The notes under the pieces were generated by a model that saw only the letters and a program-made list of their open reading frames with translations, had not been told where the DNA came from and made no database searches. The position numbers and the translations under genes were made by a program. From contig JARUPZ010000009.1 in NCBI GenBank assembly GCA_031213475.1, forward strand, positions 8,341,601-8,405,600: a stretch of 64,000 nt of DNA, written 5' to 3'. This document shows, one piece after another, positions 22,715 through 63,784 of this stretch; position 1 is the stretch's first letter; each line of letters begins with the position of its first letter. The DNA is from Nereocystis luetkeana (lineage: Eukaryota > Sar > Phaeophyceae > Laminariales > Laminariaceae).

Positions 22715-23700
22715 CTAAGCTATCAGGGGCGGGTCACCCGCTCGTCGTTCACCGAGGAGGCGTCCGTGGTCGGATCCCATACTTTGGGACGCCCGCACCC
22801 ACCGGTCCCCTACAGGCGAACGCTGTGGCTCTACCAAGACTGCGTCATCTACGTACATTCGAGTAAAGAACGGCTTGGCCTCCCCCCTCCCGTCCCCCGG
22901 GGGTACCAGGTACCCCGGGGGTAAGCGGAAGGTGTATTCTCCTGTGGCAGGCTCACTCACGGTGACGTGACTCGTGACCGCCTGGCCAAAGGGAGTGACC
23001 ACCGCGTTACGGAATGTTGTGTGGGCGTACGCGTGTTCGAGAGCGGCCGAAAACAGACACCATAATCCCGGGCTATTCCGCCACCCAAACTGAAAACGCC
23101 GGTTGACTACGACCAGGTCGCGGAAAGCGTACCCGGACAGGGGGCACTGTGCCCAGTCCACGGGGATCTGCCGGAAGGCGTCCTTCACGTCCATCTTACT
23201 CAGCAGGACGCGCGTGGGTGGGGCCGACGGGCGACGCAAGTGTAAAATACGCCAAATAATACCACGTAGTACGTGGCCTAGTTTACAGGGGGGGGCGGGC
23301 GAAAAATCTGTGCTGGAGTGGACGCTTGGTACAGATGTCTTAAAGGTAAGGCCATGAATGATTCGGATCTTAACGGGAGACACCGTCACCCCTAAAGGGT
23401 ACGATTGACAGTGTCCCGCGCGAAGACGAATGCCCGCCAAAGCCTCACGTCTTCCGCTATTTTACACGGTATGTTTCCCTCGTACAGGACGATCGATATA
23501 TGATTAACATACTGCAGGGCGGCACCCAAATCCCCGACGACGTATTCCACCACCGGCACCCCGTGCGTGATTATTTTCGCCAACAGGTCAATCTGCGGAA
23601 AACGCTTAGTATACCCAAACCAGGCCGCCACCCGACCTGCTAGTACGCGGGGGACGTGTAGCAAGTTTTCGAGGGCCCGTATGTACCCGAATTCCCCCCG
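22715..23700 (-). pseudogene. Reverse transcriptase region of the DIRS-type element
   Basis: The hallmark blocks are in order: SKMDVKDAFRQIPV (first catalytic Asp), FQFGWRNSPG (the template-grip block) and FFTRMYVDDAVLV (YVDD active site). The block spacing and the FGWRNSPG wording fit DIRS/Ty3-related enzymes rather than LINEs. It is followed directly by RNase H. Treated as a fossil. Confidence 0.8.
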
Positions 23701-23867
23701 GTGGACAGAAAAAAATGGGACTAGTGACTCGCTACGCGCTCGAGCGCCTGTTCTACCCCCCCGGTTCCGGCCACTGCCGTCAGTTGATGTACCGACTCAA
23801 CGCACGCGCGGGCAAGGGCCAGCCCACCTGCCTCTGGACCCGTCGTCATGTGACGAGGCCCGTCTCC

Positions 23868-25181
23868 CTATCCGCGCCCGGGCGTCGCTGCCCCCGAGGC
23901 GGCCCCGCCCCGGGCGGCGGTACCCCCCCCCCCCGCTGTTCCTGGAGGCGCTGGCGGCTCCATTCGGTTTGGAGCGGCCCTCCCGCCCACGCTCGCCTGA
24001 TGGCGGGCCGCCGCCTCCGCCGGTACAGGTGACGTTGTTGTGTACACTTCCACCGGTCCCACCGCGGCCGTTGCTCGCCCGGTACTTCTTGTGTGCGGGG
24101 TGAGCGTACACACACTTTTCGCCGAACCGGCACCCGCGTGCGTCCCCCCACGCGAAGCAGTCGCTAAACCGGCTGCCCCCCCCCCGAGGTCTGGCGGTCG
24201 CGCTTCTCTGCGCGTCTCGCGACTGCCTTCGGCGAGCGCGCCTAGGAGCCCCCTTCCCCGTGTGTAGTTCGTTAAAGCTGGCCACGTCGGGTACACCACG
24301 CCCGGCATGTTCTCGATCATCGGGGGTGGACCCTTTGCGACGTCCACAGCTGTGGAAAACAGGCGCTGGCAGTATTCCTCCATATCGGCGTCGATCAAGG
24401 TGGCCATGAGCGCCTTGTTGTCCGGCATGACAGCCTTGGGCCGGTGCTTCCGGCAGTGGATCCGAAAATCGGAAAGACCCCGCAGGAGTCCGTCCTCCAG
24501 CATGCTGAGCCCGTCCACGCCGTCCTCCGAAGACACCCCGTTCCCCATGACCGCCAGGATGGCCTCCACCATGATCTCCAGCTGCTCCGGCAGGAACATG
24601 GCCGCAGCCAGCCGAGTGGTGTCGTCCTCGGCCATATACGCTCCGACCCGGAACCCGGTGAAGGTGTTCAGCTTGGCGGTCGTCTCGTCCGACGCGTGCG
24701 CCACATCCCCCAGAAATGCCTGCATCTCCTCCTGCTTCAGGTTGTACACCGCCGGTTTTTCCCCGGTGGGGATCCACACCTTTCGGACGCCGAGGATACG
24801 CCACGCCGCGAAAAAATCTTTGTCCTTGGGTCGTCGCCCCACTGCGGCAAGCCCGTCCCCATAGGCCCCCGGCTGCTGGGAACCCACGATGAAGAGCTGC
24901 ATCTGTTCGCACATGGCGGCAACGGCTTCCCGGTCCTCGGTCAGAGCGACGACCTCCTTCTGCGTCGCGGAGAGTTGCTCACGGAGTGCCCGGAGGTCCT
25001 CCAGCATCTCGCCCACCGCCGCCGCCTGCGAGTCCGAGTCGCGATCCGTTTGGAGCTGGCGGATAAGCTCGGGCAACGACGTGACTGACATCCTCGCCGG
25101 GGACGCCGGTCGACGCCCCGCCCCTCGCGGCCGGGACGTGTCGGTCCAGATTCGTTGCCCCCGGCCCCCGCTTACCGCCAT
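23868..25181 (-). pseudogene. gag-like region of the DIRS-type element
   Basis: This is the first part of the element. The N-terminal half contains a predicted coiled coil (LQTDRDSDSQ... to VALTEDREA) and an alpha-helical capsid-like region. The C-terminal portion is Gly/Pro/Arg-rich. On the same strand near 24,110-24,180 lies a CCCH zinc finger of pattern C-x8-C-x5-C-x3-H, typical of the gag-like proteins of this group and likely nucleic-acid binding. Treated as a fossil: the region is interrupted. Confidence 0.65.
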
Positions 25182-25189
25182 TCACGCGT

Positions 25190-26050
25190 TGCCGACGGCA
25201 TCTGGTTGCGTCGCTGCGTATACGGGAGAGCGCGGCTGGAGGTTGGTAAGGGAGGGGGGGGGGGGGTTATGTGGTGAATATATATTTCTCCCCCCTTCGC
25301 GCCTTCTCTGCACTCTTACGTAGGTGAATCTTCTTCCATCCGCCCCTGGCGGGTGACTCAGAAGCCGTGGGTGCCAAGCCCAGCATCCCGATCGACAAAC
25401 CAACTAACAAACAACGTGGGGACGGTGGGGGGGCTTCCCAGCGCTATGCTCTTACCCTCCCCATGTTCGCATACCCTAATTTGAGATAACTGCTTCTGCG
25501 TATGCCGCCACCCTGTCCAAAACGTTCTTATCAGACGGGGCGCACGACTCATGCACGACGGCATGGGCCGTGCGTCCAACGACGAGGGATAGTCCCCCCG
25601 CCGAACATGAATTCTGGAAGCAGGGCCAACTTCAGCAGGGAAGTTACCTCATACAGCGTTGTTTGACTGTGTCTGTCTCGATCCGTGGCTAAGCCACTCG
25701 CCCGGTTGTCGCCCTTCTCTAGTCTGTGCGAAGGATAACTTTGCTGGACAATTTGTTTTTCCCTTCTCTCGCTTCTCTTTTTTCTTATTTTTCCCTTTTT
25801 CCTTTTTTTCCCCAATGGTGTTACCGGTGCCTGGAGCGTGGTTCGTTGGCTCATTCTTGGGAAATTTGAACGCCAAATAAGTAACACTCCCCGGAAAGAA
25901 GGAAACACAAAACAACTAGGAAAATGGGGAAATCTAGACTTCGACCCCCCCGGTTCTTCCTTCTCTCTTCTTGTTTTTTTCTTTCTCTCTCTCTGTCAGT
26001 CTTTTATCTCTCTCTTTATGTCTACCCATGTGGTGGTTCCGAAATATTTC
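25190..26050. other. No gene seen
   Basis: Contains a poly-G run at about 25,254-25,266 and pyrimidine-rich stretches at 25,755-25,815 and 25,950-26,015. Overlapping frames on both strands carry no recognisable domain. Confidence 0.5.
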
Positions 26051-29059: not shown

Positions 29060-30870
29060 ACATGAAAGCCTTGGGGGCCGTGGACAAACTCGTCAAGATA
29101 GTGACGGGCGGGGTACCGGTGAACGCAGTAGCGACGGGCGCGGATGTAGAGGGCGCCGTTCAGTACGGAATCCATCCCAGCGCCAAACAGCCTTTGACAG
29201 CAGTCTGGAAGAAAATCGGCGAAGATGTAACACGTCGAAAGTGGTCGGTGATACCTGGTACAAGAATCAGCTGCGCAAGAAGCCCCTTATCCATTAGTGT
29301 TCCCGCTTGCGGCGGTCGTGACACGCAAGGCCAGGATCATAAATGAGATCACAAACGAGCAATCGTTCAATACGCCGATTCGAGGGAGAAAAGGTGGTAT
29401 CAACCGAGACACTGGCCCCGACACAGCCCCCCGATGTATGTGCACACACGCGCCGCCCAGTTTGTTTTACTAACTCTTGACACTGAGGAAACGGTTCCTC
29501 GAAAGAACAGATAGTTTTGAGTAAGGCCGACGTGTCAGCCGCCTTCAAGAACGTGCGGGTTGACCAGGATCAAAACTCACCAATTTTGCTAGAGATATGG
29601 TTGTGATTGATTTTCACCTAACGTTTGAATGGTCGGGATCGCCGGGTTTCTCGGGTGTCATGTCGGTCGTGTCCGAATGCGCGCATTGCAACACCACACT
29701 CAAGTGGAGGCAGTTACTGAACAAAAGGAAACTTTACGATGACTCGGGTTGAGGTGGTAGATCGGTGGGTAAAGGGTACGCACACGCGGACTCCGCCAGA
29801 CGCTAAACTCAGGGCACACAGCAGGAGAGATATATCTGACCCATGTGTAGACGGCTATCTTCTAACTAGGGTTCAACATTCAGACGACAAGATTGTTTTG
29901 ATCGCGTTAGATTTTTCTGCCTCGGATCACGTCCGCTCGCTTGGACCGGGGGAAGAGGGATTAGCGTCCATCTTAGCGGCGAAGAAGAGTACGGACTGGG
30001 GCTCCACGATTGACGCGCCAAGGTACGCTTTCAACTCGCACACAATGATAATCCGCGCGTGAAGGCCGACCCTAGAAAAAGAGTGCTGCTTGATGCGTGG
30101 CCCCTAAGCAGAAGGCGAGCGACAATGAGGGACGTGCTCAGCATTTGCCGGGAGCTTAGGTAGTGCGTGCGGGCAGGTATTTCGTATGGAGTCGGTTGCC
30201 ACTGACCGGGGCACATGCTTGCACGACGCAAGCGCTCGACAAAATCAGAACCGTATCGTAGATCGTGCGCGAGAGTTTCACGCTTACCTCCTGTTTTGGA
30301 GGTGAGCTATAACTCACAAGCTTCCATTAGACGGAAAGGCGCTCAGCGCGCCTAATTCACGACGATAATACGACCCGCCAAAAGGCAATGCAAGTACCTG
30401 TCTGAGACAAGTTTTAAGGCCCTGGGAGGTTTCTGCGTCGAGAAGAATGGGTTTTCGGAGATACGACCAGCCGATAGAGTTAACTGCTGAACTCAAAAGG
30501 AAAGCCGTCCTTCAGGAGACCTAGAACTCCACAATCAACCTGTTGGAGCTAGTGGTAATGCTTGTGACAGGGTGCGTCATGCTCGAACTAGTAAGTGACC
30601 GGGCGGACGCGTCCGGGCGACCCGGTCTTGATGCGAACTGACGACATGGCTGCCCTATCGTGGGTGTATGTGAGCGGTGGGCGACAGAGAAAAGGGAGTA
30701 CTCACTCATGAGAATGCTGATGCGACTTCAACTCGTGGGAGGATGGAACAACTCCGCAGAACATATTCCAGGCGTCCAGGACACGTTCGCGGATAAAACG
30801 TGTGGGTGGCCCACAGACATACCGACACACAAGGTCAGGGACCTAACAAGCGGCGGCGAGTGGTACGAAC
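29060..30870 (+). mobile_element. Old relic of a DIRS/Ty3-type RT-RNase H region
   Basis: The plus strand carries decayed blocks in the same order as the element at 21-25 kb. First comes a stretch like its pre-RT region (KLVKIVTGGVPVN and GADVEGAVQYGI against LLAKIITHGVPVV and GDLGAALQYVNH). Next is an RT first-aspartate block (LSKADVSAAFKNVRVDQ, about 29,520). Last is an RNase H end block (NSAEHIPGVQDTFADKTCGW, about 30,750). Many interruptions were seen, so this is far older than the other element. Its gag and recombinase ends were not recognised. Confidence 0.6.
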
Positions 30871-37404: not shown

Positions 37405-37462
37405 CGAGCTATATACCAGGTATATATATATATATATATAATATATATATATATATATTTGT
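37405..37462. repeat. (TA)n microsatellite with TACCAGGTA
   Basis: A (TA)n tract of about 38 bp directly follows ATATACCAGG at 37,411-37,420. The 9-mer TACCAGGTA at 37,414-37,422 is one of 13 in the window. Confidence 0.9.
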
Positions 37463-41884: not shown

Positions 41885-43075
41885 AATGTATAACAGTATA
41901 TGCTGGGTATTTGGTATTTTTGGCAATATTTAGAACTCACTGCATTCCGACACTGCCTCGGTATGACAGTCAGCAGCGTGTTCTCAACCTTGGCATAATT
42001 TTCATAGTATTCCAACGAAGCAGCCAGCGGGAATGAAACACGAAAAAAGTGCAACCGCTAAACTAAACGTTTTCTTACGCGTACCAGGTATCAAGGAAAA
42101 ACACACGCTCGCGCGCACAAGTTCCTGGCGTACAGTAGTCACTTCGAGACCCAACCCACCAGTGGCATGTGCAGCCAACAGGCTGACCTCTAATGGTATT
42201 GCTGTGTTGTACAAAAACTAAACATTGCTCTATCTTCAAGCGTTTGGTCCCCCAAACGGGAGTTACAGCAGATCCGTCCCGGTCAATGCTCCTTCAACAC
42301 AATTGGACGTCATTACTACACACCAGCCTCATGATTTACAAGTACACACAACGATATCTCGGTGTCAGGCGCAACAGGGTTTCGACGCCGCCGGGTCCTC
42401 CGAAAACAACATGACAAGTGAGACGCGGTGAGCAGAAGAGGCTAAGCAGACCTGAGGCAATCAAGCCGTCGGGAAAGTCGGCAGAACGCGACGTATGCAT
42501 GATGGTTTCGAGATTGGCGCCGAAGAAAGATCGTCAGGCGATACCAGCATGGAACTGCTGACCGACTCCGGCCTCTATCGATATAGAATGCCGTTGCAGG
42601 GGTCACTCGTACCCTGGCTTCTGAGAGCGTCTCCGTCGCAAAGATTTTTTAACAAGAAAATAATAGTGGGACGGCAGCTGTACTACTGGGTAAATGCCCG
42701 GGGATGAAACAGTTGTGTGAGTGATGCGTTCTTTCTGGCGTGAGTTGTGTGGCGGCTTGGGGATGGCCGATGATTCATATCGCGATTGCTTTTTTCAGAC
42801 GAAAAATCTCCACCTCGAAAGTTTTGGGGGGAGAGTAGAATGCCCGCGGAAACCGGGAAGCAACGTGGGCGTCCAAACCAGTACGCTGAATAAAACCCAA
42901 GTGAATGAATCAACCCACCTGGTGTTCAAGTTGTGTCCTCAAGCTCGCCGTGCAAGTGGCGATCCTTAGAGACGTGCTCAGTGGAACCAGGGTATATAGT
43001 TACACGGCAAAAATATCTGTCAAGATGGCATAACCATTGGGACAGCTCTCTTGAGTGTGAAACGAATCAAGACGA
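41885..43075. other. No gene seen
   Basis: Unremarkable sequence. A frame at 42,495-42,707 has no recognisable content. One TACCAGGTA lies at 42,082-42,090. Confidence 0.4.
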
Positions 43076-45299: not shown

Positions 45300-45980
45300 A
45301 AGCGCGAGTTATAGATGCGTCCGATGAAAATGGACTTACCGGTGGGAATGCTGAATAAAAAAAACCCTCATGAGCGAAAATATATTTAGGCACGTACCGG
45401 GGGGGGAGAAGGTGTGACACCTGTGACCACGGCTTGTCCAGAAGTTCACCAAGCATAAACACTCCTACGCGCTAGCCTGGAAAGTTGAAGTGATTATAAA
45501 AGTATAAAAACATATGAACATCTCCACTTTGAATAATACGTGGTTTACTAAACCAAAAGCAAATTATGCTGAAACGTCGCGGCTTCCGTTTCTCATCTCG
45601 AGATATCTGTCCTGAACTGAAATCCAGTAAGCAAGAGTTTATTTGTGGATGTTGGTCCTCTTTATTTTCGTTGTTTTTTTATCGGAATCAAACTGGCTCT
45701 CTATTTCCCTTTATTTGTCTTACACCAGGTAACAGGTACCAGGTATATCATAACTGCACTTTCGAAAACAATCTGGATGTTGAAAATAGAACCATCTCGA
45801 CAAGAAAATTATTCTGTTTCTCCAAATATAGTTATTTTGTTCCATACGGTAATAAAAAGAGTCATATATCTTTCTTCGGATGCCGGTCAAATTTACAAGA
45901 AAGCCTCAGCATTCCGTTTCGTGGCTCGAGTTCTTATTTGCCTCGAATGAATTAAGTCAGATCCATACCATTCGCAGCCC
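45300..45980. other. No gene seen
   Basis: AT-rich sequence. Plus-strand frames near 45,566-45,955 show no domain. TACCAGGTA occurs at 45,737-45,745 beside CACCAGGTA at 45,722. Confidence 0.4.
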
Positions 45981-47082: not shown

Positions 47083-48335
47083 GTTGTTGTTCTCATATTT
47101 TGGCGAAGGAGTCGATGGTCACACGAAGGTGCTGGAGCCCTAGGAAGATCCGAAAAAAAAAAAAAAACGAAATTCGGCTGCCTCAAAATACACGAGACGA
47201 AGAAAGTGCACACAAGATAAAACCAATGCGCAAACTGAACTAACATGGCCGCGGGTATATCCTCTCAACTACAACATAGAGTACCCCCGTTCCCACAACT
47301 AACCAACTCGTGGTTGCTGACTACAGCGGATGCTGTCAGAAGTGCTGCCTGCACCGTACGAAACGCACGGTAGTCGTGAAAACGAAAGAGAAACATACCT
47401 GCCTGCTATCTGGAGTTCTGTCGGAGTGAAGACTCGCGGGTATGGAGTGAAAAAAGGAGCAATCGTACCTCACTACCACACGAATATCAACGATCGCCAT
47501 CTCTTCCTGGACTATCTGACCCAAAAAGGTGCAGCACAGTTATGATACCACGTCCCTGATAATTGCGTACCATAGGTTATTTCCCATGAAGCCTACGACA
47601 ACTCGTGAAACTACAAAGACCAGTGACGACATTTATAACAAGTTCCGGTAGATACTATTCTGCCTTGTGAAAAACAAGACCAGGAAAAAACAAACTATAA
47701 CTGCTTCTCTCGTGATGATAGTGTGCGCGCAGATCATGGGTCTCCGTGCACCGTCTTCCTGCCGCTTTTTATGGCCGCATCATCGCGTTGGACCAATCCA
47801 CCCGCTCCTTTGCGCGTGCACTCGTTGCCTTTCCCTTCCAGTCGTTTCCCTTTCTCCGTCATCCTGAAAAACAAAACGCTCTTCGCACTTGGGGTTCTGA
47901 TATGAAAAATAAAAATTCTCGCGCAGGGGGAGTTTAATCCGTCTCTTCCCCGCACGTCGACGCTCAGTCTCCCTCCGGCCTCGTCGTCTTTTCCAGCCTC
48001 CTACCTGCGCAATAGACTGTGCCGTAGTGTGGCCTGTGGTGGTGCCTGCCTCCGCGCACGGACACCCTGATTAAGCATTGCTGCTCTGCCGCAGCTGCCT
48101 AAAAAAGACGCGCGAATCGGAGGTCTCCGTGCCTGACGCACCACGTACGACCCAACTCTACTGCCGCCGGAGCCTCGCGGCCACAGGCAGCGGCAAGAAG
48201 GTATCACTCCTTGAGGGTGAGTCCGGCCTTACACCCGCCAGAAAGACCTACCCCACTCTCTATAAGCCTGATAGGGCATGCCTCGCAGCATTCCTTGCCG
48301 AGGCAGCAAGGGGAACGGAAGACAGGTATTGTATC
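47083..48335 (+). mobile_element. TIR family A, copy A1 (right end lost)
   Basis: It starts at the family's left terminal repeat (GTTGTTCTCA, then GGTCACACGAAGGTGCTGGA). It matches copy A3 throughout to GAGGCAGCAAGGGGAACGGA, then stops where repeat C1 begins. It contains a short frame also present in A2 and A3 (GSRENER... VKTRGY, 47,330-47,545) that is about 60-70 codons and of unknown meaning. Confidence 0.8.
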
Positions 48336-48610
48336 CTTTCGTTTCTCTTTTTCATAGAATGTGTGTGTGTGTCGTGCCTGACGTACCTACTATGATGACA
48401 TAGCATTGCATTGCCCACTGCTGTGCTTACTGCTGTGCATACATACGTGGCAACGTCGTATATCTCTGGCGTAGCTTTGTGACCACAGAATTTGTATCTC
48501 TTCTAGAATTGAAGAATCGGCTCGGACACTGGTTGTGCTGGATGTCAACGGGTAAAAAAAAACGGTTTAATGTGAAGAACACACACACGGCCGACAATGC
48601 AACACAGTAG
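48335..48610 (+). repeat. Dispersed repeat family C, copy C1
   Basis: It shares, in order, CATAGAATGTGTGTGT, ATGATGACATAGCATTGCA, GGCGTAGCTTTGTGACCACA, ATCGGCTCGGACACTGGTTG and GGTTTAATGTGAAGAACACA with C2 (54,780-55,155) and C3 (55,830-56,115). Inverted partial copies lie at 58,786-58,885 and 63,785-64,000. No terminal repeats or coding content were recognised. Confidence 0.75.
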
Positions 48611-48967
48611 TTAACCCCCTTGATGCCCACTCCTTGTTGTAGCCCTTTTTCACGCTATGCCATGCACCCATTTTGCTACTCGTCACTTTACACCGTGCAC
48701 TCGTTCCAAGCTGGTTGTGATCACAAGCTGAAACCAAGGCATCGCTTCGGCACGAAATACTGCAGTGCGTATTAAATCAGAGTACATTGTAGTTTTGAAA
48801 GCAGGCGGTTGATGGTGTCCATTCATGTACATTGTCGACCAAAGCTATATTCCCATCGGTTTCCATCTATATTAATGGCTAGTCACAAATATGATTCGAA
48901 ACGTGTCTACCGATAGCCGGTGCTGGCCACAATAGATTCAGCAAAAACATACGTGGTACCTGGTATA

Positions 48968-49941
48968 TCAGGCGGCAGTAGAGTTGGGCCGTACGTGGTG
49001 TGTCAGGCACGGAGACCTACGATTCGCACGTCATTTTTACGCATCTGCGGCAGAGCAGCAATGCTCAATCAGGGTGTTCGTGCGCGGAGGCAGGCACCAC
49101 CACAGGCCACACTACGGCACAATCTATTGCGCCTGTAGGAGGCTGGAAAAGACGACGAGGGAGGAGGGAGACTGAGCGTCGACGTGCGCGAAAGAGACGG
49201 ATTGACCTCCCCCTGCGCGAGTTTTTTTTTTTTTCCAGATCAGAACCGCAAGTGCGAGGAGCATTTTGTTTTTCAGGATGACGGAGAAAGGAAAACTACT
49301 GGAAGGGAATGGCAACGAGTGCACGCGCAAAGGCGCGGGTGGATTGGGCCAAGACGATGCTGCGGCCATGAAGAGCGGCAGGAAGACGGTGCATGGAGAC
49401 CCATGATCTGCGCGCACACTATCATCACGAGAGAAGCAGTCATAGTTTGTTTTTTTCCTGGTCTTGTTTTTCACGAGGCAGAATAGTATCTACCGGTACT
49501 TGTTATAAACGTCGTCACTGGTCTTAGTTTAACGACTTGTTTACCCTTCATGGGGAATAACCTACGCAATTATCAGGGACGTGGTATCATGACTGTGCTG
49601 CACCTTTTTGTGTCGGTCAATCCAGGAAGAGATAGCGATCGTTGATATTCGTGTGGTAGTAAGGTTCCATTGCTCCTTTTTTCACTGCATATCCGCGAGT
49701 CTTCACTCTGACAGCACTCCAGATAGCAGGCAGGTATGTTCCTCTGTGGTTTTCACGACTACCGTGCGTCTCATACGGTGCAGGCAGCACTTCTGACAGC
49801 ATCCGCTGTAGTCAGCAACCACGATTTGTTAGTGGTGGAAACGGGGGTACTCTGTGTTGTAGTTGAGAGGATATACCCGCGGCCATGTTAGTTCAGTTTG
49901 CACATTGGTTTTATCTTGTGTGCGCTTTCTTCGTCTCGTGT
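48968..49941 (-). mobile_element. TIR family A, copy A2 (inverted, right arm missing its TIR)
   Basis: An inverted copy of A3: it runs from GGCGGCAGTAGAGTTGGGCC (the reverse of 51,033 upward) to CTTCGTCTCGTGT, where it meets the left terminal repeat of A3. With 50,056-51,033 it makes an inverted repeat with arms of about 970 bp, roughly 90% identical by eye. Confidence 0.85.
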
Positions 49942-51330
49942 TGTTGTTGTTCTCACGTTAACTCTCTGACGAAGGAGTCCGTGGTCACACAAAGGTGATG
50001 GAGCCCTAGGAAGATCCGAAAAACAACCAAAAAAAGAAATTCGGCTGCCTCAAAATACACGAGACGAAAAAAGCGCACACATGATAAAACTAATGTGCAA
50101 AACTGAACTAACATGGCCGCTGGTATATCCTCTCAACTATAACATAGAAGACTACCCCCGTTCCCACCACTAACCAACTCGTGGCTGATGACTACAGCGG
50201 ATGCTGTCTGAAGTGCTGCCTGCACCGTACGAAACGCACGGTAGTCGTGAAAACGAAAGAGGAACACACCCGCCTGCTATCTGGAGTGCTGTCAGAGTGA
50301 AGACTCGCGGATATGCAGTGAAAAAAGGAGCAATGGAACCTTACTACCACACGAATATCAACGATCGCTATCTCTTCCTGGATTGACCGACACAAAAAGG
50401 TGCAGCACAGTCATGATACCACGTCCCTGATAATTGCGTAGGTTATTCCCCATGAAGGGTAAACAAGTCGTTAAACTAAGACCAGTGACGACGTTTATAA
50501 CAAGTACCGGTAGATACTATTCTGCCTCGTGAAAAACAAGACCAGGAAAAAAAAAACTATGACTGCTTCTCTCGTGATGATAGTGTGCGCGCAGATCATG
50601 GGTCTCCATGCACCGTCTTCCTGCCGCTCTTCATGGCCGCAGCATCGTCTTGGCCCAATCCACCCGCTCCTTTGCGCGTGCACTCGTTGCCATTCCCTTC
50701 CAGTAGTTTTCCTTTCTCCGTCATCCTGAAAAACAAAATGCTCCTCGCACTTGCAGTTCTGATCTGGAAAAAAAAAAATCTCGCGCAGGGGGAGGTCAAT
50801 CCGTCTCTTTCGCGCACGTCGACGCTCAGTCTCCCTCCTCTCTCGTCGTCGAATCCAGCCTCCTACCGGCGCAATAGACTGTGCTGTAGTGTGGCCTGTG
50901 GTGGCGCCTGCCTCCGCGCACGGACACCCTGATTGAGCATTGTTGCTCTGCCGCAGCTGCCTAAAAAAGACGCGCGAATCGGAGGTCTCCGTGCCTGACG
51001 CACCACGTACGACCCAACTCTACTGCCGCCTGAGCCTCGCGGCCACAGGCAGCAGCAAGAAGGTATCACTCCTTGAGGGTGAGTCCGGCCTTACACCCGC
51101 CAGAAAGACCTACCCCACTCTCTAAAAGCCTGATAGGGCATGCCTCGCAGCATTCCTTGCCAGGGCATGCCTCGCAGCATTCCTTGCCGAGGCAGCGAGG
51201 GGAACGGAAGTATGATGTATTTTCAGGCAGCAGAATTTTCGCAATTCTCGTTTTTTTCATCTTCCTAGGGCTCCAGCACATTTGTGTGACCACGGACTCG
51301 TTCGTGAGGGAGTTAATGTGAGAACAATAA
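49942..51330 (+). mobile_element. TIR family A, copy A3 (complete, ~1.39 kb)
   Basis: The left end (49,942-50,055) and right end (about 51,215-51,330, inverted) are terminal inverted repeats of about 115 bp. They share GTTCTCAC, TTAACTC, GAGTCCGTGGTCACACAAA, TGGAGCCCTAGGAAGAT and, further in, GGCAGC/GGCTGCCT...AAAATACA. The interior has no recognisable transposase, so this is a non-autonomous DNA transposon. A 28-bp tandem doublet (CAGGGCATGCCTCGCAGCAT region, 51,130-51,190) lies near the right end. Confidence 0.75.
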
Positions 51331-51375: not shown

Positions 51376-51605
51376 CTCACAATAAATACAATGCAGTCCG
51401 TGGTCGCAGGACAGGCTCCAATAACTCTGGAGTGGGAAAAACACCTCAGTAAAACAGAGGCAAAAACAAAAAACAAGCATGCGCACTCCACCACTGCGGA
51501 CACAACTTAAGCAAAAAGGAGACTATTAATAGGAGACAAGAACCTAAAAAAGAAGATGAAGAGCAAAATAACAAAACAAAACAAAACAAAAACAGAAGCA
51601 GATAG

Positions 51606-54300
51606 CAAAACGCAAAAAAATGCAAAACGGACCATACTAACAAAGACACAATAGCCATTGCCGGCCACATCTTGTATATCAAAGTCCGACTCGGTGGTCG
51701 TTTTGCGCCCAACAGACAAATACGTAGACCGACGAAACGCCGAGAGTTCGACAGGCAGCTTTTTATGTCCGATGGAAATTGTCGTGAACGAGTAGTCTCC
51801 AGGATCATCTCCACTCTCAACCAGCCTATCCAGCCCCGTAATACGTCTGGTATGGTTGAGATTTTCACTGCGGCTGTTATTGATGCGGTCGAAAGAGAGG
51901 TACCACCCCCTGCACGTCGCCACCGCAGACATGGATGGTGTGAGTCTGCCGAAACCTTGGCCGCATTCATGCCAGCATGGACAGCGAGGGAGGATGCACG
52001 ACAATTCTTGCGTGCCCACCCCCGGGACAGAACCGCGTGGAAGACCCTGAGATCTGCGTGTGCGAACCTGCAGAAGGTGATTGCCGCAGGACTGCATGCG
52101 TACTTCGAAGCGTACCTTGCCGAAACCGAACGACTCCTAGCGAACAACGACCAAAGAGGCTTTTACAAGCACCTTAAGAGTACGGTAGGATTGGAAGGGA
52201 CTAAAGCGAGGAGCGAACAGTTCATTAGGGACGAGGATGGCACGATCCTACGGGATAAGGTGCGAATTCGTGAACGATGGGCGGGGTTTTATCACAAACT
52301 CTTGAACACGAAGTCGCTGAAACTCGATCCCACGATCATCGACCTCTTGCCACCGCGACCGCCTAAACTGTCGCTTGAAGATGAACCATCCATAGACGAG
52401 ATGACCGAAGCACTTAAGGGGATGTCGAATTGGAAAGCTGTCGGGCCAGATGGTCTCCCGGTCGAACTCCTAAAAATCGACCACCCGGCATTCGCCCAGC
52501 GCTTTCACAACATCCTTGTCAATGTTTGGTTAACAGGAGAAGTCCCTCAGCAATGGAAAGATGCGATCATCAAGGTCCTTCACAAAAAGAAGGATCGAAC
52601 TGACTGCAACAACTATAGAGGGATCTCGCTTGTTGCCCACGCAGGCAAAGTGTTGTTGAAAATCGTCGCGTCCCGCCTCAGCAACTACTGCGAGACCGAG
52701 GAACTACTCCCCGAGGAACAGTGCGGCTTCCGCCCCGCACGATCAACGATTGATATGTTGTTCGTCGTGCGCCGGCTGCAAGAGCTCGGACGACAGAGGA
52801 AAATCCCCTTATACGTGTGCTTCATCGATCTGCAGAAAGCGTACGACTCTGTCGACCGAGAGCTGTTATGGAAGGTACTCACACGCTTTGGCGTACCAAC
52901 CAAGATGCTGAGAATTATCCGTAATTTCCACGATGGCATGCGGGCTCGCGTGCGTACTGATGACGGCGAGCTCTCGGAATGGTTTGATGTCACGCAGGGG
53001 CTGCGGCAAGGCTGTGTACTGTCACCGTTACTGTTCAACGTGTTCTTCGCTGCTGCGTTACACGTCGTACTAGTACGCTTCAGCCAAGACGAAGCCATTG
53101 TAAGGGATTTGGTCCAACTCTTGGAAGCTGGAGTAGTTCGAACAGGGAAGGAGGAGCCATTGGCGTGCGTGCGAAGGTCTGTATGGGGCATGTTATACGC
53201 CGACGATGCAGGAATTGTCTCGAAGTCGGCTGAAGGGCTCGCAAAAATGATGACAGTCATCGTGACTGTCTTCGAAGCAGCAGGCCTCACGGTGTCGGAA
53301 AAGAAGACTGAGACAATGGTCCTACAAACACCAGACCGGACAACCCTCGCACCACCGCTCGTCATCGAAGCGGCAGGTCAGAGGTATAAGCAGACGACCC
53401 AGTTCTTATACCTAGGCGGCGTTATCCACGAAAACGCTGACCTCTCGCTCGAAATCGACCGACGGATCCGCCTCATGCGAGCATGCTTCAAACGGTTCGG
53501 CCCGGAGTTGTATGATAGGACGACCGCCCCCCTTAGCCTTAAAGTCCGAATGCTGAAGGCCGAGGTGATTGAGACCCTGCTGTACGGGTGTGTGACGTGG
53601 ACCCTCAGAGCGGAACACTTTGCCAAGCTTCGAACGGCTCACCACCAAGTCCTGTTGCGAGTCATTGGCTTCCAGCGCCGACTTCGTACTGACCATGCCA
53701 CCCTCTCGTACGCGAAGGCCCTCAAGATGACACGTTGCGAGAGCATCGAAACGACCATTCGCAAACGGCGGCTCTTCTTTGCGGGGGGCGTGGCACGGCA
53801 AAGCAAGGAGCGATTACCCAATCGGGTAATGCTCGGGACGATAGCTGGTGGGGAGAACCCGAGACCAGGCGGACAGTGTAAGACTTGGCATAGATGCATA
53901 GTCGAAGACCTTAGGGAGTTCCGAGCCACCGAAGGGTCAACGGAAGTTGCCCCCTTGGTGTTTGGAGTTGAGACCGCGTTGTGGTCCACTGCAGCCAAAA
54001 AGGTGGGGAAGTGGTACCGGGGGATCCTTGAAGCAGCCGAACGGTTCATGGTGAGGTGGCACGAGGCTGAGGCTGAGATGAGTAGACAGCGCCGCGCATC
54101 CGCCGTGGATGGTGCCCAAAGGAACGGGGGGGGAGGGGGCAACAGGAGAAGTGGCATAAAGCCCGACCGAGGGAATGCAGAGAGGGGGGGGAACAGGAGG
54201 GGTAGAAGGGAAACGGCGGTAGACGAAAGTAGGAAGGAGATTGCAGACAGGGTAGCAAGGCACCAAGTCGACTAGGAAGTAGAATATGACCATACTACTA
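51606..54300 (+). mobile_element. 5'-truncated LINE (RTE/Jockey-like)
   Basis: One long plus-strand frame covers the reverse-transcriptase half of a non-LTR retrotransposon. The frame is open from 51,606 and begins in what looks like the very end of an APE-type endonuclease domain ([17 protein letters not shown], resembling the usual SDH-x-x-V-x-x-K-x-R-L end). The rest of the endonuclease is absent, which is ordinary 5' truncation during target-primed insertion. The upstream 51,480-51,605 is A-rich. An older fragment of the same family lies at 43,080-43,310, and its 3' tail is partly repeated at 54,525-54,640. Confidence 0.85.
51672..54275 (+). CDS. LINE reverse transcriptase ORF
   Basis: 867 codons counted from 51,672 (a TTG; the frame is open back to 51,606 and its native start was lost). 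Reverse-transcriptase blocks by approximate residue: [14 protein letters not shown] (256-269), [14 protein letters not shown] (346-359), [14 protein letters not shown] (384-397, first catalytic Asp), [15 protein letters not shown] (442-456), [11 protein letters not shown] (506-516, active-site YADD), [10 protein letters not shown] (534-543) and FLYLGGVI (578-585). The C-terminal half has the conserved thumb and tail of RTE-like elements ([23 protein letters not shown]), then a basic Gly/Arg/Asn-rich tail. All catalytic Asp residues are present and no stop interrupts the frame, so the insertion is fairly young, but without its endonuclease it cannot be a complete autonomous copy. Confidence 0.9.
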
Positions 54301-55164: not shown

Positions 55165-55800
55165 AGAAATGTTTTCGTCGATAGCCACCGCTGTGGGCCG
55201 CAGTAGATTCTGCAAGCTATACATCGATAGCCATTGTCGGTGACAAAAGCTTTCAGCCCGGAAACTTCAGCACACTGCCTGCCTGAACAATATGTTGGTA
55301 ACAAAACCTATCGATAGACATTATCGACAACATTGGCACGAAGAACGTGCCAATGGATAGCCAGGGGTGAGGCTCACTTGGCGGTAAGTAATAAGGATGA
55401 GACCCGGTATCCGTTGTAGGCCCCATGCCCCCTACATAAATAAACATAAGTGGAGCATTTTTATCGGAAACCCCTGCTGTTTTGCTCCCTTCGGCAGCTT
55501 CTGCCCTCCATATTTCACATTTGGAGCTTTTTTTGCTGTGGACCTGCGACCAGCTGCGACTCCCTGTCAATGTTATCTACCAACCGGAGAAGGTCGGTCT
55601 CCGCTGTCCCTGCCTTGCCATGTTGGCGGAGGCTTGGAGCTTACAGCAGTGTCAAGTGCCGAGGAGCTAGATGTAGCAGGAAGCAAAATATAACTTAGTA
55701 TTACCTGGTAGACTGGGTTGAACTCATCCAAATGCCGATCGGTTGAAGTCACAGCTGACGTACTCTTTTTGTTTTCTTGAAAAAAAAAAAAAAAAGCAGA
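55165..55800. other. Decayed ATCGATAGCC repeats, then no feature
   Basis: 55,165-55,380 holds degenerate units around TCGATAGCCA(C/T), CGATAGACATTATCGACAAC and GTGCCAATGGATAGCC, as at 46.4 and 48.9 kb. 55,390-55,780 has frames on the plus strand without domains and a poly-A run at 55,780-55,795. TACCTGGTA lies at 55,702-55,710. Confidence 0.45.
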
Positions 55801-55829: not shown

Positions 55830-56115
55830 TTGTTTGTTTTTTGTTTCCGCTTGGATTATTTCCTTTCGTTTCTCTAATTCATAGAATGTGTATGTCGTGC
55901 TTGTCGTATCCACTATGATGGCATGTCATTGCATTGCCCACTGCTGTGCTTACTGCATACACATACCTGGTACGTGTCAACGTGGTATATCGGTGGCGTA
56001 GCTTTGTGACCACATAACTTTCATCTCTTCTAGGATTAAAGAATCGGCACGGACACTGGTTGTGCTGGATGTCGACGCGGAGAAAGAACGGTTTAATGTG
56101 AAGAACATACGCACA
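55830..56115 (+). repeat. Dispersed repeat family C, copy C3
   Basis: It matches C1 and C2 from CATAGAATGTGTATGTCGTG to GGTTTAATGTGAAGAACATA. Compared with C1 it carries a 7-bp insertion that creates TACCTGGTA (ATAC-CTGGTAC-GTG against ATAC-GTG). Confidence 0.75.
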
Positions 56116-56504: not shown

Positions 56505-57941
56505 AGGGTTTCCCCGTAAAAAAGTAAAGTCGTGAAGATCGTCGTCTCGCCAAAAGAAAGTCGTCTCGAGGTTGTTATTACGCCGCTAAATTATACCAGC
56601 TGCCAGTACAATTCAAAAACATAGCAATTTTCCCACGACGAAAAAATCTGACGAGAGGTACTTCTACGGCATACCCTGGTATTCTTTTTCTCCCTCCCCA
56701 GTTAAAGGTCATCTCTTTTTCGTCGTGAGGGTGAACAGCTGCGAACAGACCGCAGCCGGGCCATCCCCATCTCCCAGCCTTGGCATCCCTCGCATCCCTC
56801 ATCTCGTGCGCTGTAAGCAATCCCCAGCAGCCGCAGTGTACCACGACGACATATACCGCTTCAACGTGTGGCCGGCCGGCACCGCGGGAGATAGATGCTG
56901 TTTTCTGTTTGTGTGAAACCCATCTACAGCTCTGCGCTGATCGCATGTTGAGTTTCTTGTCGACGAGATGAAACATGTCCTCGGGTGCACGCGGCAAGGG
57001 GCATGCAACCACACAAACATCGAGCGCAAAATGCATTTCCTTTGCACTGGCACCCCGCCGAGTCGAGACCATCGGCAAGGCTGTGGAGAGCCGGAGCTTC
57101 CGGGCTGGGGGTCGAGGGGGGTGGCGTTGGGCGTCTGAGGGCGACCGGGAGCAACAGCTCTCCAGTGCGTCTGGATGATAGCTTCGGCTCGCTGGGACGC
57201 TCACCGGAGTTGGAATTTGTGGGCACGAGAGGTCGGGAAGCTGCTGCTGTGCGTGGAGGCCCGAGCGGGGTGGAGGAGGCGGATGAAAAGGACGAGGATG
57301 ATGGGCAGGGGGGGGGGATAACGCAGGCGGCGGTACCGCAGCAGGTTGTGCTTGAGGTTGTATGTAGCGGGTCATCAGAGCATATATATATATATGGCGC
57401 GTTCGTACGAGTATGATGTACGAAGAAGCAGGACGGAGGATCGCTCCATATGGTTTTGCGTTTTTGAAGCTTGCTGTCCTTGTATACCACTACTACAGCA
57501 GTAGTAGTAAACCAGGAATGACACCTGATGGTGTGTTCGCTGTATGTACTCGTACGTTCGGCAACTGCTGCTATGCGAGCTTCAGGTATACATACAGTAA
57601 TCAACACACACGTGATTGGACCCACGAATGGAAGGGGTGTACAACGGCAGTAGCGCCAGTTGATAAACCGGAGGTTCTAGTTCTTGCGGGTTCATGCTTT
57701 GTATCTGGTACGCAGGTGATGAGAGTATGAGGAATGCGCAATCGGCACAGGAAATATATGTACCAGGTGCCTGGTAGATGAAAAAGCGGGCCGAACATCG
57801 AAATCTACATCATTTCCGCTAACTACTCGCCAAACTGTGGTTCAAACGTCACGGCGAACTTCGCGACGATAAATTTCGCCGGAAAATAACTGAGACGACG
57901 TTCTTTCACGACGTTTTCATTTCTTTTTACGGGGAAACCCT
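56505..57941. mobile_element. TIR element G, 1.44 kb, non-autonomous
   Basis: Inverted terminal repeats of about 80-90 bp: the left starts AGGGTTTCCCCGTAAAAA at 56,505, and the complement of the right end (57,941 downward) starts AGGGTTTCCCCGTAAAAAGA. Both continue through GTCGTGAA, CGTCGTCTC and GTTATT...CGGCG/CGCCG. The left arm has an internal doublet of GTCGTCTCG. No target-site duplication is obvious. The interior has no recognisable transposase but does hold a long GC-rich minus-strand frame. Confidence 0.75.
56578..57375 (-). CDS. Hypothetical protein inside TIR element G
   Basis: 265 codons from an ATG. The N-terminal third is Pro/His/Ser-rich (QAQPAAVPPPALSPPPAHHP). The middle has EDMFHLVDKKLNM and VEAVYVVVVHCGCWGL. 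The last residues (GSWYNLAA) are encoded by the element's left terminal repeat. I recognise no family and no DDE-type catalytic triad. The GC-rich interior differs from the AT-richer flanks, so this may be a captured host segment carried between the inverted repeats. It could equally be a chance frame in GC-rich DNA. Confidence 0.25.
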   Translation of the reverse strand: MTRYIQPQAQPAAVPPPALSPPPAHHPRPFHPPPPPRSGLHAQQQLPDLSCPQIPTPVSVPASRSYHPDALESCCSRSPSDAQRHPPRPPARKLRLSTALPMVSTRRGASAKEMHFALDVCVVACPLPRAPEDMFHLVDKKLNMRSAQSCRWVSHKQKTASISRGAGRPHVEAVYVVVVHCGCWGLLTAHEMRDARDAKAGRWGWPGCGLFAAVHPHDEKEMTFNWGGRKRIPGYAVEVPLVRFFRRGKIAMFLNCTGSWYNLAA

Positions 57942-58089: not shown

Positions 58090-58970
58090 TACAGCAGTCA
58101 GTAGTAGTGGTGGCACCTGCTACGAGAACCTCTGTTGGATACATGTATGTCATATGAGAGGTTGTAGATATTTCGTCTTGAAATTATGAGGGTGGAATCA
58201 GGAACCACACACAACATCGAGTACGGTGTACAAAGGGCACAAGCCGAGCGTACTACGACACTGACCCTGGCCTCGTGGATCCTACTGCTACTGCTGCTGC
58301 TGTTTTGCTGCTGAAGAAGCTCTTACCACGGTATGTAGATGTTGCACAGCTGCAGAAGTTGTGGCACCTGCTACAAAAAGCTCTTTTGGGTATGTCATGT
58401 TCGTGTTGTCTCGAAAATATTATGAAGACTTTCGAGGTGGAAAGCAGGAAACACAAAAAAAAAACGAGTGCAGGGTACACACTACAGTACGTATGTGTGT
58501 GTGTACGCGTACAAAGGGTGCAAGGGTTAGACCAACAAGCTAAGCGTACGGCGACGCTGACCCTGGCCTCGTGTGTCCTACAGCTACTGCTGCTGCTGCT
58601 GTTATGGTGCGGGAGGCACACGGCTGCTGTAGATGTCGTACATCAGTCCAAGTTAAGTTGTGGTGACACCTGTCGCTAAAAAAAAGCTCTTTCTGTTGGA
58701 CGAAACATGTGAGATGCAGATTCTTGTTGTGCTGAATTTCAACAAGAAAACACTCTGCTGGACAAAACATGTCGAGTGTTGTGTGTTCTTGACTATTTCT
58801 ACCCGTCGACGTCCAGCACCACAGCAGTGCCCGTGCCGATCCCTCAATCCCTGAGAGATACAAGTTCTGTGGTTGCAGCAGTGCAGATTTCGTCTTCAAA
58901 ATTATTACCAGGTATGCAGGATTTAGAGGTGGAAACCAGGATACACACGACCAAATCCAGTACTTCTTCA
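58090..58970. repeat. Three ~290-bp tandem units
   Basis: Units begin near 58,100, 58,345 and 58,640. They share GTGGCACCTGCTACRA, TCGTCTTGAAATTATGA-like, GGTGGAA(A/T)(C/G)AGGAA(C/A)CACA, GTACAAAGGG(C/T)(A/G)CAAG and ACGCTGACCCTGGCCTCGTG, followed by CTACTGCTGCTGCTG. The third unit has an inverted family-C fragment inserted at 58,786-58,885. Frames rich in Ser or Leu reflect the CTG/CAG runs. Confidence 0.7.
58786..58885 (-). repeat. Dispersed repeat family C, copy C4 (partial, inverted)
   Basis: The complement matches the core GTGACCACAGAACTTGTATC...GGAAGAATCGGCACGGACAC...GTTGTGCTGGATGTCGAC of C2. Confidence 0.65.
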
Positions 58971-59866: not shown

Positions 59867-60012
59867 CAACAGTAGTTCGTACAGTAGTACGTACGTGGTA
59901 AATTTTCCTTCGTGTTCGTTCGTTCAGCACAATACAAAATAATCAGTATGCGCCCAGCATGATGCATCGCAGATATTATGGCTACTGCAGGTATTACCGA
60001 GGTCGCTCCTCA

Positions 60013-60130
60013 TTACTATTACGGGGGTCCATAGTTACTAGGACCTGTGGTATACATAAAAACCTATATATGTAACCATTTTTACTATCCATATTTGGTC
60101 CTATTAACTATGGTCCCCCGTAATAGTGAA
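60013..60130. mobile_element. 118-bp foldback MITE
   Basis: Left arm TTACTATTACGGGGGTCC then ATAGTTACTAGGACC (60,013-60,045). The right arm (60,097-60,130) is its inverted complement, 30 of about 33 positions paired. The 51-bp loop is AT-rich. TACCAGGTA (60,137-60,145) begins 7 bp beyond the right arm. Confidence 0.7.
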
Positions 60131-60169
60131 AAATAATACCAGGTATATTTCAAGTCCTACCACTACTGT

Positions 60170-60564
60170 GACTTGCGAATCGTGGCGGGACGCGACGGGA
60201 AATATTTTTATTGTTTGGCGGAGAAAAAATGACAACGGGACGGTAAAATGAAGACATGAAAAGTTGCCGGGACGGAACAGCGGTTGCACATATTGTCGAC
60301 ACGACGGGACTGTCGAATTCAGCGGTACAGATTTCACGACGGGACGGGACGGAAATAATTCAATCCTCCGGCTGAAAGGGACGGTAAATATAGTTTTCCT
60401 TGGCGGGAAAGGACGGTATATATTTTTCCCCTCGTCGAGACGGGACGGTAATATAAATATATTTTCCCCACGGCGAGGCGGGACGGTATATTTTTTTTTT
60501 TTCGACGGGGCGGCATGGTGAAAAATTTTTCCTCCGTTGAACGGGACGGTAAATATATGCCAGG

Positions 60565-60595
<31 letters not shown>
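60170..60595. repeat. Degenerate GGGACGG array and (TA)n
   Basis: Irregular units of about 35-55 bp of (G)GCGGGACGGTA(A)ATATA with T-rich spacers (TATTTTTCCCC) cover 60,180-60,555. They are followed by TGCCAGGTATATG and a (TA)n tract (60,568-60,594). Related to the array at 62,570-62,870. Confidence 0.75.
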
Positions 60596-60599
60596 TCTT

Positions 60600-61190
60600 T
60601 CCTGCTGCAAGGTCGACGCGTTTGTACGTCAAGACTTTCCCGCACTGATTGTTGCGCGAAGGGAGAGCCGGCTCGACGCAGACGTTTTTCTTCTCGACCC
60701 GCGGTCCGCAAGCCCCGAGAAGTGCTACCACTACACGGGCGACATATTTTCCTTATTTCTCGCCCCCCCTGCCGCAAGTATTGTTGCGGTGCTAGCTCAT
60801 GGCCTAGTGGCTGTGTTCTGATGGTTATTTTTTAATGTGTTTGCGCTGTGGTACTGATTATTGTGGAGGTAGGTAGGTGAAGATAGGTACTGCTGGAGGT
60901 GGTGGCGGCGGCGGTGGTGGTTGTAGTGGCGCTCGCGGCTGATCGATCGACCCCGCCCGTGAGATAGGCATCCATGGCGTCCGTACCAGTCATACAAGAG
61001 ATGCTAGGAGCTACGAGACAGCATTCTCCCCCCTTGACAAGACAGCAACTTTGCCTTGAAACACATACCAGGTATATGCTTTGACAGACACCAAACTACT
61101 AGGCTAAATGTGGAATACATGGCCCTACATCGTTAACAGCGCACCTTGTGAGTCTCGCTTGATGACGTGTCCCGACATCTTTTTGGGCCA
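60600..61190. other. No gene seen
   Basis: Contains a purine-rich (GGT/GGC)n stretch at about 60,893-60,925. TACCAGGTA lies at 61,066-61,074. No recognisable coding content. Confidence 0.4.
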
Positions 61191-61196
61191 TACCAG

Positions 61197-61320: not shown

Positions 61321-61351
61321 TGTAGATTGGTGGTGTGACCGTGAGTTGATA

Positions 61352-62345
61352 CACTCAGGCTGTTTCCTATGCGGTTCGATCTCGAGCTTCAGATTTGTAT
61401 TTTTCGATTTCAAAAACGAATGACCCTGCTTATGCAGTCGAAATATGCAAAACCCGACCGGGAATTTTCCGATTTGAGAAGCCGATGACCCAAGTCGTCG
61501 GATGTTTGGCCAAAATCCGATGACCTGGGTCATCAGATTTTGAAATCGAAAAATGGCATGCTCTCTAAAAACAAGATGTTATCCATGACAGGCAACAGCA
61601 GCAGAACGATTGATGAGTTGGAAGGTGACACAGCTGTAGAACACAATTCGATGCGAGTCGACGAGGGAAGAAAAGGCTGAAATCTTCTCGCGATAAAAAT
61701 GAAGGCACGTATCGTAGCGGGAAGGGGGGAGAAGAGCCTGCTATTAATATGTGACCCCGGATCTGAGTTACGAGTTGGAAGGAGAAAGAGAAGAAGACGG
61801 GCGAAAGATAATAAATGGGATAGGAAAAAAAAAATAAAAAAATTGCGACGTTGCCTCGCGCCCGACGCTCGGGCGGCGAGCGGCGCGACCCTCCGTGGAC
61901 AGACGTGAGTTGCCTGGCGCGGTCTCGGGCCTAGAGACCAAGAGAAGCGCACTCGGCACGCACCTCTCCGTGGATACGTACGAGTACTTGTAGGCACAAT
62001 ACACTGCTGTACAGCAGCAGTCAGTCACAACATGGCACCCAAAACACCAAGACAGGTGGCTCTAGCGCACTAGCCACGTCTCTTCGCCGCCAGACCAGAG
62101 ATGGTCAGCCTTGGCTCGGACGCTTAGGTCCTACGCGCACTGCAGCACCCAGGGCGTCTCTTCGCGGCGTCAGACCGCAAAAACAGCAGTTGGTTTCGGC
62201 GTTTGCCCAAATCTCTACACACACAATAAATCTGATATTTCCTCATAGATAGGAAGGCTGTTTCGATTTGCCAACTTCACATCTGAAAATGCTATAGGGC
62301 CAAAATCTGAAGCTCAAAAATAGGAGCGCATAGGAAACGGCCTCA
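61352..62345 (+). mobile_element. TIR family E, copy E2 (complete, carries a SINE)
   Basis: The left end (CAGGCTGTTTCCTATGCGG...GAGCTTCAGATTT) and the right end (AAATCTGAAGCTC...CGCATAGGAAACGGCCTC, 62,300-62,345) are inverted repeats of about 45 bp. The interior matches E1. An internal foldback at 61,486-61,537 pairs GATGACCCA with TGGGTCATC and TCGTCGGAT with ATCCGATGA around GGCC. SINE S2 is inserted at 61,637-61,850, and E1 keeps the uninterrupted sequence. No transposase is seen. Confidence 0.8.
61637..61850 (+). mobile_element. SINE copy S2 (no tRNA head)
   Basis: It matches the body of S1 from CACAATTCGATGCGAGTCGA through GAAGGCACGTATCGTAGCGG to the A-rich tail AAAAAAAAAATAAAAAAA. It sits inside E2, between bases that are adjacent in E1 (GTATAC/CGACGTTGC near 44,625). 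Confidence 0.8.
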
Positions 62346-62569
62346 ACTTTCATTTTTTTGCAAGCTGCGTATTACGTATGCAACTGTTTACTACTGTTGA
62401 TACTGTTATGTACGTCTTCCAATCTTATTAGTATGCGAGTTGTAGTACCTGGTAGTTATATAGGAATACCTACAAAATTTTAGAAAAACTCGATTTTAAT
62501 TTCATTGTTTTCGTGATTCGAGGTGGGAATAGACGGGAACAGACCACCTCGAATGAATGTATCTCGCTG
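62346..62569. other. No gene seen
   Basis: AT-rich spacer. TACCTGGTA lies at 62,446-62,454. Confidence 0.4.
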
Positions 62570-62870
62570 GGGGAGAGGCACGTTATGTCCGCCGGGGCCA
62601 GCGGAACGGGAGGGTAATTTTTCAGTGTCACGGCGGGACGGGACGGTACTGTCCGGTGTCACGGGCGGACGGGGCCGTCATTGCTGGTGTCACGGCGGGA
62701 CGGGACAGTAATTATTCGGGATCACAGCGGGACAGGACGGTAATTTTCGAGGGGAAATATCTTATCGGCGGGGCGGGCGGTATGTGACGACGGTCGGGAA
62801 ATTGGTCGGCGGGACGGGACGGCGAGACCATTTTGATGCTCCGCCGTTACTGGCGTTACCGTCCCGCTAA
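62570..62870. repeat. Degenerate GTCACGGCGGGACGGGACGG array
   Basis: Units of about 36-40 bp: GTCACGGCGGGACGGGACGG then TA(A)TT(A/T)TTC-like spacers, at about 62,627, 62,657, 62,689 and 62,722, with more decayed units either side. The right end (GTTACCGTCCCGCTAAAATA, 62,849-62,868) is inverted relative to the array, as at 43.8 kb. Confidence 0.75.
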
Positions 62871-63014
62871 AATACCGTGATAAGCCTTGAAACATTTCAA
62901 CCTGTTGCAAAGTCATATTCCCTGAGTTTAAATACCTTCCCTTAGCCGGGTTAAAGTGTATCAGTGCGAAGAATGATGGTGTATCTTGTCCTATTGACCC
63001 GGGTAGAATCCAGA

Positions 63015-63275
63015 GGAGTCACTGGGATATAGATTTGATAAATTGTTGAGAGGGCCTTGCAGCGTGGGTAGGCACAATTCGATGCGAGTCCAAGAGGGAA
63101 GAAAAGGCTGCAATCTTCTCGCGTTAAAAATTAAGGCACGTACCGTAGCGGGGAGGGGGGAGAAGAGCCTGCTATATGTCCCCGGATCTGAGGTACAAGC
63201 GGGAAGGAGAGAGAGTAGAAGATGTGCGAAGAAAATGAATGGGATGAGAAAAATAAAATAAAAAACATCTGATGA
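63015..63275 (+). mobile_element. SINE copy S3 (no tRNA head)
   Basis: It matches S1 from ATTGTTGAGAGGGCCTTGCA through GGCACAATTCGATGCGAGTC to the tail AGAAAAATAAAATAAAAAAC. The tRNA-like head is missing. Confidence 0.75.
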
Positions 63276-63784
63276 TGCATTCTTGACAAGGAAGTGCACA
63301 ATTGTACCTGGTAACAGGTATAGAATATGCGCGAAGTGCGTATCGAACAATTTGTAACCAAGGTATAATCTCAAATACCGAGTATATAGTGTAGACGAAA
63401 CGTATTACTCAGCTTGGAAAGTTGAATATCAAATTCAGTTGACCTGGGAGCTGACAGCTGACGTATTAGATATTTTCCCAAAATAACAACAATGGAAAGG
63501 AAGAGAACATTTTTCTTCACATTCATATATATGTATGTGCCTGTTAATCCGTTGATCCGAGGAGATGCGTCATTTCCCTCCGTCCTTAATCTCACTCTGT
63601 TTATATGTAGCATTATTGGTCCTTTAATTTACGTACATACCACGTATATACAAAGCTCGGTCATTTCGAATGTTCGCAACGTCCCCTGCGCGGGCAGGAA
63701 TGATACGTACTTCGTTTTGTATTGTCTACCAGGTGTGATAAATTGTCGATATGTCGTATACCGTGCTCGCTGCTTCCAGTATGG
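63276..63784. other. No gene seen
   Basis: Short frames only. TACCTGGTA at 63,305-63,313 and a TACCAGGTG at 63,727. Confidence 0.4.

Follow-up and report, generated by a model that had tools for sequence, protein, structure and literature searches.

What has placed the near-palindromic word TACC(A/T)GGTA over and over in the DNA of the brown alga Nereocystis luetkeana? The question is raised by a stretch of 64,000 bases (C9:8341601-8405600), hereafter the window, in an assembly of 465,085,209 bases and 1,987 contigs; further sampled loci are numbered L001-L034. We find that the word genuinely marks a 7-bp insertion at TA, repeated on a massive scale, and put at roughly 0.7 the probability that it is an excision footprint, or scar, of a TA-inserting, Tc1/mariner-like DNA transposon.

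A first-pass annotation of the window had reported 13 exact copies, all of which lie at the coordinates it gave, and a chance expectation of about 0.5 copies per 64 kb, which we recompute as ~0.49 for equal base frequencies; shuffling the window 100 times with its dinucleotides preserved gave a mean of 0.44 copies (standard deviation 0.73, maximum 3). Assembly-wide the word occurs 182,395 times (~1 per 2.5 kb), against 1,744 for the reversed word used as control, so the genome-wide frequency, which the annotation had proposed to count, is ~100 times the control and not near expectation. From each of contigs 1-20 a 10-kb piece was taken, always at the same fixed position; these 20 pieces hold 0-9 copies each with a mean of 3.85, in agreement with the whole-genome count.

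Paralogs reveal what is inserted. Each motif was swapped for a single TA and all sampled DNA was searched for site-spanning paralogs, the strict criterion being a paralog with one TA and no further gap within 8 bases. Of 125 sites, 31 had a spanning paralog, and in 12 of the 31 a clean single TA was found (one of these, L007 3388, sits in an AT repeat). A laxer test of 120 sites gave 33 with a spanning paralog and 21 with a copy that has one TA; some of the 21 sit in AT repeats or doubles. When all TA-N5-TA words were tested (112 CCWGG sites), clean empty paralogs were found for CCWGG in 12/27 versus 6/227 for the other words together (Fisher p = 2e-9). These counts vary with the sample, in which L029/L030, L033 and L034 are not random, having been picked as motif-rich. 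The strict and TA-N5-TA tests drop sites near ends or with low-complexity flanks; the TA-N5-TA test, the XY-CCWGG-XY count below, several of the inverted-end scans, the comparisons of filled and empty sites and of 6-bp insertions, the count of centre variation in sampled DNA, the micro-element scan and the ~310-kb scan drop the first 16.7 kb of the window, a tandem array.

Single comparisons can be very close. At L029 6518, 70 aligned bases are 100% identical save for the insert (87% over a longer alignment); L029 9233 and L029 10454 have empty paralogs at 96% and 94% identity, and 11 of the 15 copies spanning L020 7056 are empty. The behavior as a small insertion that the annotation described is thus borne out: between close paralogs the difference is exactly 7 bp, one TA being left. 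Its suggestion of a preferred target is rejected, because the empty paralogs lack the motif, which arrives with the event. The near copies that it placed at 45,722, 57,761, 60,559 and 63,727 exist (positions now ~45723, 57761-57776, 60558 and 63727). The sites in the window are the following.

22904..22912, no strand: exact TACCAGGTA; no spanning paralog in sampled DNA
29252..29260, no strand: exact TACCTGGTA; clean empty site with one TA in L015, strict test passed
37414..37422, no strand: exact TACCAGGTA, inside an AT repeat
42082..42090, no strand: exact TACCAGGTA
45737..45745, no strand: exact TACCAGGTA, adjoining the near copy CACCAGGTA at ~45723
48957..48965, no strand: exact TACCTGGTA
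55702..55710, no strand: exact TACCTGGTA
55964..55972, no strand: exact TACCTGGTA; L012 has a clean empty site, and the window copy near 48435 has TA
57761..57776, no strand: near copy TACCAGGTGCCTGGTA
58906..58914, no strand: exact TACCAGGTA; single TA in the window 58411, L012 and L029 copies
60137..60145, no strand: exact TACCAGGTA, 12 bp past the repeat at 60017-60125 described below
60558..60566, no strand: near copy TGCCAGGTA
61066..61074, no strand: exact TACCAGGTA; its paralogs all have other gaps
62446..62454, no strand: exact TACCTGGTA
63305..63313, no strand: exact TACCTGGTA
63727..63735, no strand: near copy TACCAGGTG

Two cases of presence and absence in related repeats, also from the annotation, are confirmed: 55964 (versus ~48435 and L012) and 58906 (versus window 58411, L012 and L029). 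In the strict test, 55964 is clean and empty in one of eight spanning copies, the others having further small gaps; 58906 passes the laxer test only, since other small gaps nearby keep it outside the strict count. The insertion noted in a tandem unit near 58 kb exists, at 7 bp rather than ~10 bp. The statement that five copies are followed by TATAT holds if counted from GG (TACCWGG-TATAT at 37414, 45737, 48957, 60137 and 61066). Gene conversion, another of the early suggestions, is unneeded for clean empty sites; it may act at sites common to several paralogs, e.g. window 58906 and L029 10454.

The insertion is specific to TA. Among the 16 dinucleotides in XY-CCWGG-XY, TA gave 194 (both strands; 97 sites) and the other 15 gave 2-13; L001 and L002, fetched for a hit, were dropped from this count and from the count of centre variation in sampled DNA. 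The TA is duplicated either side of the insert and single when the site is empty, as in a Tc1/mariner-type footprint. At 92 listed sites the insert is preceded by R in 77 and followed by Y in 79; farther out, A stands at -10 in 49 and T at +10 in 44, and A or T at -11 in 75 and at +11 in 74. Background TA sites have no such flank pattern, in a comparison that pools both sides. The palindromic target preference around TA, seen on each side separately, is likewise of the Tc1/mariner type, and a transposase complex with two-fold symmetry would be expected to produce just such a pattern, alike from both sides and lying beyond the inserted letters. Among these 92 sites the flanking sequence differs, and a single ordinary repeat family holding all copies, which the annotation had named as a possible refutation, is rejected for the sampled copies on that ground.

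In the mechanism that we propose, a DNA transposon would insert at TA, duplicating it, and its transposase, perhaps of the IS630-Tc1-mariner or pogo type, would later excise the element by cutting the two strands at staggered positions, a few bases in from each end. The single-stranded ends left behind would read CCAG(G) or CCTG(G), an overhang of either 4 or 5 nucleotides being workable; self-complementary but for the middle base, they would allow the two flanks to anneal through G-C pairs, and repair of the A-A or T-T mismatch either way would give an A or T centre. TA would thereby become TA-CC(A/T)GG-TA, and the site 7 bp longer. In TAC(A/T)GTA, the scar of Sleeping Beauty, a mismatched centre is likewise either A or T.

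Tc1/mariner elements are described as targeting and duplicating TA, cutting with a stagger that leaves 3' overhangs, and leaving an end-joining scar between two TAs (PMC7827188); the footprints of Sleeping Beauty and its relatives, as given there, are like ours in the duplicated TA target and in the position of the scar between two TAs (PMC7827188). The related element ZB is reported to prefer a palindromic AT repeat around TA (PMC7913693). Natural TA-flanked scars, and reinsertion beside old scars, are described for a Stowaway miniature inverted-repeat transposable element (MITE) in intron 4 of the Triticeae beta-amylase gene (PMC1925063); the scars in that account are of one gene and varied in sequence, whereas here one sequence dominates genome-wide. 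The pogo-type Passer is also reported to leave TA-related scars (PMC9976928), and DDE_1 (PF03184) domains occur in the present genome. Among the literature matches listed for the letters of the motif, the titles are not on transposon scars, from which we do not claim absence from print.

Excision footprint was among the readings offered by the annotation, and is the best supported of them although no donor element was found in ~310 kb; we prefer it because of the single-TA empty sites, the TA on both sides, the target preference beyond the inserted letters, and a second word, treated below as a parallel, that fits a MITE. The scars appear mildly decayed on average, since changed versions amount to only ~5%. 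Genome-wide and on both strands, TACDWGGTA occurs 39,127 times versus 19,965 for its control, an excess of ~9,600 for each of two symmetric positions, or ~5% of exact copies, and TACCSGGTA, with 10,882 versus 1,899 genome-wide, again gives ~5%.

Scars also occur as overlapping doubles, TACCWGGTACCWGGTA being found 15,917 times genome-wide versus 2 for the reversed word. A hand tally of the centres of 59 listed + strand doubles gave A-A 23, T-T 17, A-T 14 and T-A 5; the 19 with mixed centres cannot be explained by simple tandem duplication of one unit. The near copy at 57761 had been called a perfect palindrome, and its sequence TACCAGGTGCCTGGTA is present. Its counterpart in a related L029 unit (5156 region) is CACCAGGTACCTGGTA, and the two look like differently mutated copies of the double scar TACCAGGTACCTGGTA.

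The parallel is a second scar-like word, TATTAATA, which occurs 93,112 times genome-wide versus 10,689 for its reversed word, and for which 5 of 9 testable sites have clean single-TA paralogs. Its sites favour G, T, A read outwards, a target unlike that of CCWGG. The word and its candidate donor, a 109-bp MITE with TTAC ends, lie in the window as follows.

51524..51531, no strand: TATTAATA, second scar-like word
60017..60125, no strand: 109-bp TA-flanked MITE, TA-TTACGGGGG ... CCCCCGTAA-TA, candidate donor of TATTAATA
61742..61749, no strand: a further copy of TATTAATA, among the 6-bp insertions found relative to a paralog

The MITE is also present in several sampled loci, and filled and empty sites can be paired (L008 8192-8300 filled versus L008 near 7927 empty; L013 9283-9391 filled versus L017 near 3895 empty). 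The TTACGGGGG element is short and non-coding, with terminal inverted repeats, TA flanks, several copies and empty sites, all as expected of a MITE. When the genome was searched with an L020 copy that carries a scar, 2,223 first-look candidates emerged, 40 of which were scored. TTA overhangs pairing by two bases would yield TATTAATA, which is likely the scar of this MITE; a second palindromic repeat of ~95-100 bp, with the end TATTAACCC in L016, could leave TATTAATA too, and the assignment is therefore likely rather than proven. Palindromic repeats of ~95-100 bp that are TTAACCCTTTTAGAACCGCAGTCCCG-like were seen at L007 378-472 and 1604-1698, L008 400-492 and L016 8651-8751.

Several results weigh against excision as the source of TACC(A/T)GGTA. 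The ~310 kb of sampled DNA, which after masking holds 134 scars, contains no element whose terminal inverted repeats are of the form TA-CCWGG (or TA-CCA/CCT); from zero donors there, the genome would have roughly fewer than 4,500, far below the scar number, if their inverted ends are recognisable. In this the case is unlike those of Tc1/mariner, with ~182,000 scars in one genome and the donor not found in ~310 kb. Searches of the assembly gave no match to PF13358 and none to PF01359, the control for the latter search being silent everywhere too. PF03184 (DDE_1) had 28 matches in the assembly; the six loci examined (L023-L028) have no CCWGG-type ends, nor have L031 and L032, and these DDE_1 loci were rejected as donors, so that the likeness to pogo-type elements stops short of any link between the examined loci and CCWGG ends. 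L031 and L032 (contigs C872 and C1099) are identical over 5,583 bases, have a DDE_1 match each, and contain no TACCWGGTA. Micro-elements of the form TACCWGG-15/16 bp-CCWGGTA were found at L033 858-886 and L025 1194-1223; the former was rejected as a donor, its sole genome match being itself.

The length of the insert is another such point. Tc1/mariner footprints are given as 2-4 bp (PMC7913693), so that 5 bp would make ours a variant, and the Passer scars reported are 0-4 bp (PMC9976928). Decay at the centre had seemed a mark of mismatch repair, with 26 changed copies versus 3.9 expected in sampled DNA, but genome-wide counts make the centre only ~1.4 times as variable per base change as elsewhere, and, the A/T choice apart, the mismatch model gains nothing from it. 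Equal centres are over-represented among the doubles (40/59 listed, p = 0.009), hence not all doubles are two independent events. The Sleeping Beauty-like word TACWGTA is enriched in sampled DNA (105 versus 36 expected, both strands) but has an empty paralog in only 1 of 24 testable sites, which leaves a third scar class unsupported. No locus was observed in all three states: filled, empty and scar.

The main rival, which the annotation had phrased as a tiny mobile motif, is direct micro-insertion, in which an enzyme would add the 5-bp CCWGG with a TA duplication (or the 7-mer TACCWGG) at TA, for example by abortive end-only transposition. It draws on the missing donor in ~310 kb despite the 134 scars there, and on the very uniform letters of the insert. 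We regard it as unlikely, as the insert is shaped like annealed self-complementary overhangs with a mismatched centre and the same genome's TATTAATA fits a visible MITE; we know of no enzyme that does such insertion. Put more boldly, this would be a micro-insertion system in which a transposase-like enzyme acts without a larger element; in a related variant, the source would have been removed so wholly, even in a programmed manner, that scars alone remain in the sequenced DNA.

Passive carriage within ordinary repeats, or tandem repetition of a 7-bp unit, has in its favour that some copies in repeats share a site (e.g. L029 9958 and 11823), along with the excess of equal-centre doubles; it is made very unlikely by flanks that differ among the 92 listed sites, by the absence of the insert in 12 of 31 paralog sets and by the heterotypic doubles. 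A palindromic motif for protein binding or chromatin, which selection keeps or spreads, would suit a near-palindromic, short word found genome-wide (0-9 copies in each of the 20 10-kb pieces), yet is hardly credible, given that base substitution would not give paralogs that differ by exactly 7 bp, single TA against duplicated TA, and that changed versions of ~5% per base at one inner position mean that many mutated copies persist.

The DNA around these sites holds other repeats. Window positions 1-15700 are a tandem array, made of two adjoining stretches, whose 87/88-bp unit (175-bp dimer) is present ~179 times; at 47100-51200 a unit of more than 1 kb stands in +, -, + orientation, with long inverted repeats. 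Large palindromes lie at L029 4553-6123, L030 6414-8000 and window 56917-57917; the arms of that in L029 resemble the window sequence around 57 kb at ~85-89%, and inverted ends that are GGGTTTCCCCGTAAAA-like delimit the window copy near 56508 and 57945. A TA-flanked element of ~1 kb with ends GAGTGTTTG occupies L022 412-1430, and a related copy lacks it. Window 51672-54275 is an open reading frame of 867 amino acids in which a reverse transcriptase domain is recognised (RVT_1, E 1.2e-35), and short repeats that have diverged, resembling ACGGTGCGGTTCGGT and GCGGGACGGGACGGTAAT, are found at 43490-43686 and 62601-62749.

If the words are indeed excision footprints, cut-and-paste jumps would have left a dense fossil record in this genome, at about one scar per 2.5 kb, which would escape annotation based on whole elements. 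Past jumps would be countable, the target preference readable, and the ends of an unseen element inferable from what it left behind. The scars would amount to a natural, large-scale test of excision-break repair, and to a source of 7-bp insertions and deletions that would shift reading frames.

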